Shown piece after piece: positions 3,841 through 55,797 of a stretch of DNA of 64,000 bases (position 1 is its first letter; the number at the start of each line of letters is the position of its first letter). The notes beneath the pieces are model-generated. The model was given only the letters and a program-made list of their open reading frames with translations. It had not been told where the DNA came from and did no database searches. Location: NCBI GenBank assembly GCA_030431475.1, contig JAUIJD010000001.1, positions 124,001-188,000 on the forward strand, read 5' to 3'. A program made the position numbers and the translations under genes. The stretch comes from Verrucomicrobiia bacterium. Its GTDB lineage: Bacteria; Verrucomicrobiota; Verrucomicrobiia; Verrucomicrobiales; Akkermansiaceae.

Positions 3841-4126
3841 GGCCGTGGCGCTTTTCGAGGCGCCATGAGCCGGGCGACAGGAGAGGAGCGGCGCTTTCCA
3901 AGCGCCATGCGCCGGGCTGGCGGCTTTCCAGCCGCCACGGGACGCGCGGCGCCGTCGCGCCCCGCCCCGACCTCCATCGTCCCTCACCGCGATCCACGGC
4001 AACGCTTCTCGAGGCAGCCGACCAACCGGCAACTCCTGCGCGACGGCGTCGCGCGTCCCTCGCCACCGACGCACCACCCCGCACTTCCCACTCGCCCCGG
4101 CTCCGGGATTCGCTAAGACTCGCCTC
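3841..4126. repeat. Cluster of palindromic (REP-like) elements in a gene-free gap
   Basis: No gene is supported in this 286-base gap. It holds at least three short perfect hairpins: 3846-3865 (TGGCGC arms, 8-base loop), 3890-3906 (GGCGCTT-TCC-AAGCGCC) and 3918-3937 (TGGCGGCT-TTCC-AGCCGCCA). A fourth structure is a long inverted repeat pairing 3939-3960 with 4038-4059 (21 of 22 bases), whose right half is itself a palindrome (GCGCGAC-GGC-GTCGCGC). The second hairpin recurs at 52422-52440. Lack of a T-run argues against simple terminators. Short frames here (for example 3865-4116) look like chance ORFs. Confidence 0.7.
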
Positions 4127-16170: not shown

Positions 16171-16199
16171 GAACTCCAAACTCCGAACTCCGAACTTCC
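16171..16199. repeat. Tandem heptanucleotide repeat before asnB
   Basis: Four consecutive near-identical units (GAACTCC, AAACTCC, GAACTCC, GAACTTCC) end three bases before the asnB ATG. The pyrB-asnB gap also contains CCGTCTGTCTGG at about 16138-16151. That shares CCGTCTGTC with the repeat-rich flank of the four-helix-bundle gene at 54503-54541. The repeat is clear; any relation between the two sites is a guess. Confidence 0.6.
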
Positions 16200-45879: not shown

Positions 45880-45955
45880 TTCCGGAGGCTCGACATTCCT
45901 GTCGATCGGCACGGCTCCGCTTTTGATGATCGACAGGAATGTCGATACTCCGGAA
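45880..45955. repeat. Large nested inverted repeat downstream of the sigma factor
   Basis: A 17-base perfect inverted repeat pairs 45891-45907 with 45928-45944 across a 20-base loop. After a 3-base mismatch an outer 8-base pair follows (45880-45887 with 45948-45955, TTCCGGAG / CTCCGGAA). Each inner arm is itself a hairpin: CGACA-TTCC-TGTCG on the left and CGACA-GGAA-TGTCG on the right. It starts 22 bases after the sigma factor stop. Without a T-run it is not a standard terminator; it could be a REP/MITE-like element, an RNA processing site or a paired protein-binding site. Confidence 0.7.
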
Positions 45956-52593: not shown

Positions 52594-54024
52594 TCAGTAG
52601 CGGTAGTGCTCCGGCTTGTAGGGACCGTCGACCGGTACGTCGATGTAGTCGGCCTGGTCCTTGGTCAGCTTGGTCAGCTTGGCGCCGATCTTGTCGAGGT
52701 GCAGTCGGGCGACCTCCTCGTCGAGGTGCTTCGGCAGCACCTTCACCTCGCCGGCCTTGTAGGTGTCCTTGTTCTTCCAGAGGTCGATCTGTGCGAGCGT
52801 CTGGTTGGTGAAGCTGTTGGACATCACGAAGCTCGGGTGGCCGGTGGCGCAGCCGAGGTTCACGAGGCGACCTTCGGCGAGCATGTAGATGCTGTTGCCG
52901 CCGGGGAAGCTGTATTTGTCGACCTGCGGCTTGATGTTGGTCTGCTCGACGTCCTTGCGGGCGTTGAGCTTCTCCATCTGGATCTCGTTGTCGAAGTGGC
53001 CGATGTTACAGACGATTGCCTGGTCCTTCATCTTCTCCATGTGCTCGACGCGGATGATGTCGTAGTTGCCGGTGGTGGTGACGTAGATGTCGGCCCAGCC
53101 GAGCGTGTCCTCGACGGTCATCACGCGGAAGCCTTCCATCGCCGCCTGCAGCGCGCAGATCGGATCGACCTCGGTGACGATCACCTGGGCACCCTGTCCG
53201 CGCAGCGCCTGCGCGCAGCCCTTGCCGACGTCTCCGTAGCCGCAGACCACGGCGGCCTTGCCGGAAATCATCACGTCGGTGGCACGCTTGATGCCATCGA
53301 CCAGCGACTCGCGGCAGCCGTAGAGGTTGTCGAACTTCGACTTGGTCACCGAGTCGTTGACGTTGATCGCCGGCACCAGGAGCGTGCCCTTGCGGGCCAT
53401 CTGGTAGAGGCGGTGCACGCCGGTGGTGGTCTCCTCGGAGACACCCTTCCACTCGGCGATCATCTTGGCGAAGATGCCGGGCTGCTCCTTGCCGATGTTC
53501 TTGAGCAAGTTCTTGATGACCTCCTCTTCCTGGCTGCCGGACGGGGTGTTGACCCAGTCGGAGCCGTTCTCCATCTCGTAGCCCTTGTGGAGCAGCAGGG
53601 TCGCGTCACCGCCGTCATCGACGATGAGCTGCGGGCCGTTGCCGTCCGGGAACTGAAGCGCCTTCCAGGTGCACCACCAGTATTCCTCGAGGGTCTCGCC
53701 CTTCCAGGCGAAGACCGGAATGCCGGCCTTGGCGATCGCGGCGGCGGCGTGGTCCTGGGTCGAGAAGATGTTGCAGGAAACCCAGCGCACCTCGGCGCCG
53801 AGTTCGACCAGCGTCTCGATGAGCACGGCGGTCTGGATGGTCATGTGCAGCGAGCCCATGATCCGCACGCCGGCGAGCGGCTTGTCGGGACCATACTTCT
53901 CGCGGGTCGCGATCAGGCCGGGCATCTCGTGCTCGGCGATGTCGATCTCCTTGCGTCCGAAATCGGCCAGGCCGATGTCGCGCACCTTGTAGTCTTGGGT
54001 CGTTGGTTCAGCGGTTGTTGTCAT
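52594..54024 (-). CDS. ahcY: Adenosylhomocysteinase
   Basis: AhcY hydrolyses S-adenosylhomocysteine to homocysteine and adenosine. The 476-residue product starts [34 protein letters not shown] and has [58 protein letters not shown] (Lys and Asp active site), [37 protein letters not shown] (NAD site), NIGHFDNEI and the terminal Tyr. The length includes the approx. 40-residue insertion common in many bacteria. The upstream gene on the same strand is a four-helix-bundle protein, then metK. The activated-methyl-cycle genes thus form a minus-strand unit. Confidence 0.97.
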
Positions 54025-54080
54025 GATTCGATCTGTTGGATGTGGGGTTGAAGGTGGAAGAGTTGAAGACTCCAGACTTG

Positions 54081-54526
54081 AAGACGACAGACGTCAGACT
54101 TGAGCTAGAAGAGCCAGCCGAAGAAGAGGCCGAGAAGACCTCCTTTTCCCAAGGATCTGCGCAAGCCCTGGATCATCGCGGACACCTCCTTCACTTCTGC
54201 GAGTAGAAGGCGCGCCTGGTCCTCGGTGAAGACACCGGCCCGAAGCCCGATGTAGAGTTGCGTTCGCAGTTCGCCGGCCGAGCCCTTCGCGATCGCGAGA
54301 AAACGACGGAACTCGCGGTTGCTTTCCCGCTCGGAGCCTTCGGCGATGTTCGACGGGATCGAAATGCAGCTTCGTCCCATCTGATCCTTCAAGGCAAAGA
54401 GCCTAATCGGATCGATCAGCTCCAGCACCTCCACTGCCAGACGAGACGACCGCTTCCACACTTCAAGCTCCTCGAAATTATGCACGGTCGTCTCCTCCTT
54501 GTCTCAAGTCTGCGGTCTGTCGTCTT
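54081..54526. mobile_element. Inverted-repeat-bounded element carrying a four-helix-bundle gene (putative)
   Basis: Bases 54081-54104 and 54503-54526 are inverted repeats with 22 of 24 bases matching; each holds GACGACAGAC and CAGACTTGAG (or complements), with two differing bases between them. The left copy abuts the stop codon of the enclosed gene; the right copy ends 17 bases before its start. Around them lie direct repeats: CAGACTTGA at 54073-54081 and 54095-54103, and GTCTGTCGTCT at 54515-54525 and 54530-54540. The 446-base unit looks inserted between metK and ahcY. Mobility is inferred from structure alone. Confidence 0.55.
54105..54485 (-). CDS. Four-helix-bundle protein (23S rRNA intervening-sequence protein family)
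   Basis: The 126-residue product belongs to the S23/IVP family: FEELEVWKRSSRLAVEVLELID, LKDQMGRSCISIPSNIAEGSERESNREFRRFLAIAKGSAGELRTQLYIGLRAG, then DQARLLLAEVKEVSAMIQGLRR. Members form small helical bundles, are encoded within 23S rRNA intervening sequences or as free genes, and are related to the Avd protein of diversity-generating retroelements. It starts with GTG, preceded by AAGGAGG eight bases away. A glycine- and phenylalanine-rich tail (KGGLLGLFFGWLF) is unusual. It lies between metK and ahcY and is enclosed by inverted repeats. Its function is unknown. Confidence 0.9.
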   Translation of the reverse strand: MHNFEELEVWKRSSRLAVEVLELIDPIRLFALKDQMGRSCISIPSNIAEGSERESNREFRRFLAIAKGSAGELRTQLYIGLRAGVFTEDQARLLLAEVKEVSAMIQGLRRSLGKGGLLGLFFGWLF

Positions 54527-54547
54527 TCCGTCTGTCGTCTCCTCGCA

Positions 54548-55759
<1,212 letters not shown>

Positions 55760-55775
55760 GGGTGTGTCGTGTTTT

Positions 55776-55797
55776 CGCATCGTCAAATCGCGATGCG
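55776..55797. promoter_or_regulatory. Inverted repeat between metK and its divergent regulator
   Basis: CGCATCG (55776-55782), eight bases, CGATGCG (55791-55797) form perfect arms in the middle of the 57-base divergent gap. Position suits an operator for the adjacent ArsR-methyltransferase protein controlling both genes. Binding is inferred. Confidence 0.45.

Follow-up and report, generated by a model that had tools for sequence, protein, structure and literature searches.

The window, by which we mean the whole 64,000-nt stretch of the Verrucomicrobiia bacterium contig JAUIJD010000001.1 analyzed here, carries a small gene of the S23 family between metK and ahcY of an essential operon, enclosed by two inverted arrays of a short iterated unit. 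Open reading frames and their translations give the order metK, S23 gene, ahcY on the minus strand, with the following features:

54548..55786, minus strand: metK, upstream gene of the host operon (open reading frame and translation; tblastn matches in relatives)
54503..54540, minus strand: 5' arm as read along the S23 coding strand, AGACGACAGACGGAAAGACGACAGACCGCAGACTTGAG; AGAC occurs five times, at spacing 7-8-7-7
54492..54500, minus strand: Shine-Dalgarno-like AAGGAGGAG, read from the sequence, lying after the 5' arm and ahead of the S23 start codon (GTG)
54105..54485, minus strand: S23 (23S rRNA-intervening-sequence-protein) gene, four-helix bundle, 126 aa, GTG start
54067..54104, minus strand: 3' arm, inverted five-unit 7-8-7-7 array, 31/38 complementary to the 5' arm
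52594..54024, minus strand: ahcY, downstream gene of the host operon (open reading frame and translation; present in 34 of 38 relatives)

The product of 54105-54485 matches PF05635 (23S_rRNA_IVP; E = 1.7e-31, 109 bits against a curated cut-off of 33.8) from end to end (profile positions 1-106 of 106), and TIGR02436 (108 bits; cut-off 24) and NF008912 match as well. PF05635 is the only family of this gene, and its nearest solved relative is 2GSC (E = 9.4e-15). An earlier note, made from the letters alone, had named the same 23S rRNA intervening-sequence family, in agreement with the PF05635 and TIGR02436 matches. It had also described inverted repeats of 24 nt at 54081-54104 and 54503-54526, whose 22/24 match we reproduced. 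These repeats form the inner portion of arms that extend further (54067-54104 and 54503-54540; 38 nt each, 82% complementary, 31/38 pairing), so that the 24-nt arm is replaced by a 38-nt arm of five units. The extra direct-repeat copies it placed outside the repeats are present, but as further units of the same arms rather than as separate copies. In both arms the AGAC units are spaced by 7, 8, 7 and 7 nt counted from the outer end, and the outer end of the 5' arm lies 7 nt past the metK stop codon. When the arm geometry was slid along the window, none of 1,662 placements reached the observed score (20.5; maximum 15), which together with other controls rules out chance or base composition as the source of the arms. 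The predicted fold of the transcript (-229 kcal/mol, z = -6.1) pairs the arms and leaves the S23 gene in the loop, the stem that the note had envisaged. Its structural observation is therefore confirmed, and the structure is larger than described: the note was right about the protein family, the existence of a bounded unit and the resemblance to 23S rRNA intervening sequences, while the heptads, the generality across the family, the parallel with GxxExxY genes and the gene-free hairpins described below had been missed.

Arms around S23 and GxxExxY genes

The genome of this bacterium contains 14 PF05635 matches, and nearly all of these S23 genes lie between inverted arms, each with its own word, as they do in relatives. 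Within the genus, inverted arms flank 53 of 73 S23 genes compared with 2 of 83 other small genes (Fisher p = 2e-22; the latter from a 464-kb sample of the bacterium's own genome, in which 3 of 84 small genes, the window gene included, have a flanking inverted repeat scoring at least 14). Arms were likewise found in 48 of 77 loci across many phyla (Verrucomicrobiota, Bacteroidota, Proteobacteria, Desulfobacterota, Planctomycetota, Clostridia and others), a set that was collected with two peptide patterns (SIPSNIAE-like and FEDLEVWKR-like), comprises the best 80 loci and therefore leans toward one S23 subfamily. Clear arms are missing from roughly a quarter to a third of all S23 genes. An unbiased scan for inverted repeats in the 464-kb sample likewise recovered S23 genes, along with one IS200-type transposase. 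The plan of arms plus S23 gene is thus general to S23 genes across phyla. Two single loci are recorded here in their own right. The transposase, an IS200/Y1-type gene within an inverted repeat (TCATCCCGAAGGGAT...; L079:4173-4860), is the sole other convincing small gene enclosed in this way in the sample, and at L214 (G011:C160:23700) the S23 frame reads through its 3' arm into a response-regulator-like gene to give one fused frame.

Words differ between elements, whereas the unit is nearly always 7 nt long. Autocorrelation of the genus arms peaks at shifts 7 (0.66) and 14 (0.60), with most other shifts near 0.27; the values of 0.32-0.36 at shifts 8 and 15 are expected from occasional 8-nt steps, and arms sampled GTDB-wide behave in the same way. 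A test that requires no inverted repeat finds a 7-periodic stretch upstream of 37 of 73 S23 genes in the genus (p = 4e-21) and 44 of 78 GTDB-wide, compared with 10 of 285 control genes. In unit chains, 679 of 686 steps are exactly 7 nt, though the scoring penalizes other steps, so that 8-nt steps, which the AAGAC family has, are counted too seldom; the modal number of units is five, and the longest arms hold up to 18. Read in the direction of the S23 gene, the 5' arm is rich in purines. Period 7 stands out outside genes in this genome too. The window itself contains a lone heptad array at 16172-16196 (AACTCCAAACTCCGAACTCCGAACT) with no inverted partner nearby, and two intergenic stretches in another genome (L321, G009:C35; L364, G009:C23) are full of varied iterated words of 7 and 9 nt lying adjacent to one another, resembling a graveyard of element arms.

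The S23 genes are placed co-directionally within operons: both neighbors share their orientation in 58 of 67 cases, compared with 134 of 284 genes in general (47%; p = 1.5e-9), with orientations assigned by a simple codon-usage gene scorer trained in this analysis, in which single calls may be wrong. The outer ends of the arms lie a median of 6 nt past the upstream stop and 7 nt ahead of the downstream start. Host junctions include metK-ahcY and, judged by flanking reading frames, pheS-pheT.

A second gene family of the same genus is organized in the same way around another unit length. Of 27 GxxExxY genes tested (PF13366, PDDEXK_3, PD-(D/E)XK), 22 lie between inverted iterated arms and all 27 have co-directional neighbors; the family thus shares with S23 elements both the arms and the position inside operons, although the protein fold is unrelated and the unit is 9 nt instead of 7. 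Period 9 was found upstream in 15 and downstream in 17 of the 27 genes tested, none of which had arms of period 7. Unit length therefore goes with the enclosed protein family, 7 for S23 and 9 for GxxExxY, which argues against polymerase slippage alone as the origin of the arrays.

Gene-free hairpins and the history of the arms

In many relatives, metK and ahcY are separated by tens of bases or less with nothing inserted, and in G005, G008 and G009 their junction holds gene-free palindromes of other heptad words; the earlier note had proposed looking for such an unoccupied site, and the outcome favors a unit. The empty junctions are too diverged for a target-site duplication to be read. Where S23 genes do occupy metK-ahcY, they fall into two clades, one with the AAGAC word (the genus of the window) and the other, elsewhere, with a CAGTTTT-type word. 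A single clade was rejected (AU p = 0.015 on a short alignment), and with it one ancient insertion inherited throughout. The junction has thus been taken up by two separate S23 lineages; the note had argued that the gene at this site in all relatives, with unrelated flanks, would speak against a mobile unit, and two clades, each with its own word, favor a unit.

Nor are the arms confined to this locus, which rules out a repeat unique to it. Gene-free AAGAC-type copies lie on contigs C6, C13, C58, C61, C76 and C81 of the same genome, again in favor of a unit, since the note had held that flanks found only here would count against a mobile unit. Gene-free hairpins of the AAGAC family are dispersed in 14 of 18 genomes, with seven AAGAC matches in the bacterium's own, and those of the GTGATC family in 16 of 18. 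The 7-8-7-7 register occurs in 24 of 34 AAGAC-family arms, gene-free and S23-bearing alike. Gene-free hairpins often adjoin stop and start codons and are found between many unrelated genes, including divergent and convergent ones. Their dispersal is directly observed. Genome G016 has neither an S23 gene nor hairpins of the AAGAC or GTGATC families. Copy number tends weakly to be higher where the cognate S23 gene is present (p = 0.09 and 0.06), and G007 has 45 GTGATC matches with no S23 gene. Two further palindrome families, REP-like in appearance, were seen in passing: GGAGCATCGACATTCCTGTCGATC at window positions 45880-45955, L097:8951-9035, L092:5576-5914 and L093:15379-15439, and GGGACGCGCGACGCTGTCGCGC at window positions 3939-4059, L085:15227-15394 and L094:13350-13485.

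Most S23 genes of the genus keep the same two neighbors and so occupy orthologous positions, which means that they are mostly inherited in place and movement is rare. No target-site duplication was recognized at the S23 elements compared, no transposition gene or insertion enzyme was found for them (the window unit is without a transposase), and the genomes compared yielded no strain-level pair of presence and absence with both flanks. These observations, together with the orthologous positions, lend no support to recent mobility; a mobile element was one of the possibilities the note had raised. In G011, two arm-gene-arm copies are 91% identical, each cut by a contig end that makes its outer boundary unreadable; a flank of one copy, used as a query in relatives, matched dispersed repeats, and no empty site was read.

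Values of dN/dS for S23 genes (orthologues and other S23 genes with unsaturated dS) are about 0.05-0.15, which denotes purifying selection. At one locus common to nine species the words are of AAAGTAG, GTGATCG, GGAAAAA and CAGTTTT types, and the arms match within each species. Arm pairing scores are 17.7 within species versus 13.1 between orthologues (p = 1e-5); both arms therefore change in matched fashion at orthologous loci. Between G008 and G011, one arm grew from about three to about nine units. Word similarity tracks S23 similarity even where no shared neighbors were detected, with words differing by at most 2 bases in 46% of pairs at S23 identity of at least 60% and in 11% of pairs below 30%, a comparison in which some shared positions may have been missed because the flanks were of limited length.

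Proposed explanation and alternatives

We consider it probable, though far from certain, that 54067-54540 belongs, as its gene-bearing member, to a dispersed hairpin-repeat family with arms of about five heptanucleotide units (here AAGACNN, 7-8-7-7). The S23 gene sits in the loop and is read in the direction of the host operon, and gene-free relatives lie elsewhere in its own and sister genomes. Such an element would spread as a unit over evolutionary time, rarely, and then stay put. Being promoterless and inter-cistronic, it would use the transcription of the operon and might be tolerated for that reason. Its long transcribed stem may be cut by RNase III, freeing the neighboring cistrons as in the S23-coding intervening sequences (IVS) of 23S rRNA. 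The best candidate for a protein that recognizes the arms is the S23 homopentamer itself, with one subunit per heptad; recognition of this kind would explain the fixed 7-nt step, the number of about five units, the constraint on the protein and the drift of words with protein clade, although the match between five units and a pentamer may be coincidental. A broader proposal, which we put forward only tentatively, is that there are two classes of mobile hairpin lacking a transposase, one defined by the S23 pentamer and the other by the unrelated GxxExxY protein, with the geometry of the protein setting the step at 7 or 9 nt, that rRNA IVS are S23 elements that landed in rRNA, and that gene-free heptad hairpins are their non-coding offspring.

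Several features of the locus would also suit a fixed device for RNA processing or regulation, in which the stem separates or tunes the metK, S23 and ahcY messages and S23 acts as a resident regulator of the stem without being mobile. Strong co-directionality, a long and stable predicted stem, orthologous conservation, low dN/dS and matched evolution of the arms all fit it. We nevertheless regard this explanation as unlikely, given the sporadic presence of the gene (metK-ahcY is empty in close relatives), two S23 lineages at one junction, gene-free hairpins between genes that are unrelated, divergent or convergent, and the recurrence of the design with an unrelated nuclease-fold cargo (GxxExxY).

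Inverted terminal arms, short gene-free derivatives and dispersed copies are also what one would expect of a transposable element or MITE that some ordinary transposase moves in trans and that carries S23 or GxxExxY as a passenger, and the same genome does hold an IS200/Y1 transposase inside its own inverted repeat. Arm sequences, however, vary between elements, and with only the 7-nt step in common there is no common terminal sequence on which one transposase could act. As unit length also goes with the family of the enclosed gene (7 or 9 nt) and no target-site duplication was seen at the elements compared, we find this quite unlikely.

The arrays might instead be a mutational by-product of heptanucleotide slippage and palindrome correction in permissive intergenic spots, associated with S23 only indirectly. 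In many bacterial genomes, heptanucleotides are reported to be the most abundant repeat class, and polymerase slippage has been proposed to explain them (work cited in PMC4679880); the prominence of period 7 outside genes in this genome and the recent arm expansion in G011 relative to G008 point the same way. This process would leave unexplained the excess of arms at S23 genes (53/73 versus 2/83) and the period of 9 around GxxExxY, as well as the rigid 7-8-7-7 register, the co-directionality and the correlation of word with protein, and it strikes us as very unlikely.

The idea that S23 serves a reverse transcriptase encoded elsewhere, as part of a DGR/Avd-type retroelement, draws on Avd, a DGR accessory protein of the same fold family as S23, but is rejected as scarcely credible: the bacterium's own genome has its 14 PF05635 matches and no RVT_1 match (about 5% of the genome is not assembled), so that a reverse transcriptase is not needed for S23 elements, G003, G004 and G010 have S23 without RVT_1, and G016 has RVT_1 without S23. 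As a separate observation, the 1.5-Mb genome of a gammaproteobacterium (G370, contig C1, L397-L399) contains 11 near-identical genes for 136-aa PF05635-like (Avd-like) proteins; those read lie near a repeated downstream gene, are preceded at L397 by a lectin/FGE-like frame and at L398 and L399 by an IS30-like transposase, and possibly represent multi-copy cassettes of DGR type.

If a dispersed hairpin unit is the right description of 54067-54540, the S23 element looks like a so far undescribed kind of repeat element. Very many genomes contain free-standing S23 copies annotated with no more than the name 'four helix bundle protein', and in the three decades for which S23/IVP proteins have been known, no function has, to our knowledge, been assigned to them. 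Defined by a boundary, a grammar of five inverted heptads, a rule of location (sense direction, within operons) and gene-free copies, S23 becomes a testable system. Should the pentamer bind its own heptads and RNase III cut the stem, rRNA IVS, many unexplained heptanucleotide repeats and GxxExxY genes would come under one scheme, and a unit length set by the enclosed protein would, if true, be a new principle for mobile repeats.

Relation to known repeat and intervening-sequence systems

In anatomy, the closest parallel is the S23-coding IVS of 23S rRNA. That of Coxiella burnetii is bounded by a 28-bp terminal inverted repeat, holds its S23 ORF in the loop, is excised by RNase III and carries two to three tandem heptamers (GACAGAT) upstream of the ORF, in numbers that vary between strains; a solved S23 protein is described in that paper as a homopentamer (PMC4990558). 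The window element follows the same plan in another host RNA, which bears out the likeness drawn in the earlier note: a long terminal stem that loops out an S23 ORF, heptamers, a sporadic distribution and a stem that would suit RNase III. It differs in that it lies between the cistrons of a protein operon and not in rRNA, so that it is not itself an rRNA IVS, and the Coxiella ORF is described as decaying (PMC4990558) whereas the S23 protein here is under purifying selection. No conserved 23S strings were found near S23 genes in the 80 cross-phylum loci or in the 29 gammaproteobacterial loci checked; with no S23 gene inside 23S rRNA among the loci surveyed, the link to rRNA rests on the published case (PMC4990558). 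The known rRNA inserts may be a special case of the S23 repeat element.

Paired five-heptad arrays have been described before in another context. Passages on Geobacter metallireducens report 'class 3' sites (MTYCTGA) as opposite-strand pairs of five tandem heptanucleotides each, one of them between proB and proA, and read them as sites for global regulators (IHF/HU); by that description they resemble S23 arms, and these passages draw no link to S23 (PMC2700814). In Beggiatoaceae, TAACTGA heptamers form direct repeats near start codons, and a mobile repeat-binding protein has been suggested; the heptad arrays are alike, but neither an inverted partner array nor S23 is reported (PMC4679880). A link of S23 or GxxExxY genes to such arms was not found in the open-licence literature, and earlier descriptions may exist elsewhere. 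Compared with an insertion sequence or MITE, the window unit has no transposase, and terminal words differ between elements.

In population structure, the nearest system is that of REP/REPIN sequences and RAYT (TnpA-REP), an HUH transposase associated with short GTAG/CGTC-tagged REP hairpins. S23 elements share with it dispersed gene-free palindromic repeats, a gene between inverted copies, a repeat tied to a protein clade and mostly vertical positions; the window unit likewise has dispersed gene-free palindromic copies with the flanking sequence of its gene. A two-tier population like that of S23 elements is described for REP/RAYT in parts of two studies (PMC3116915, PMC8049555). The differences lie in the protein (a four-helix bundle in place of an HUH/Y1 transposase), in the repeat (arrays of about five heptads in place of short tagged hairpins) and in the free turnover of the S23 word at a fixed unit length. 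Taken together, these comparisons suggest that the S23 element is best read as REP/RAYT-like in its population structure and rRNA IVS-like in its anatomy.
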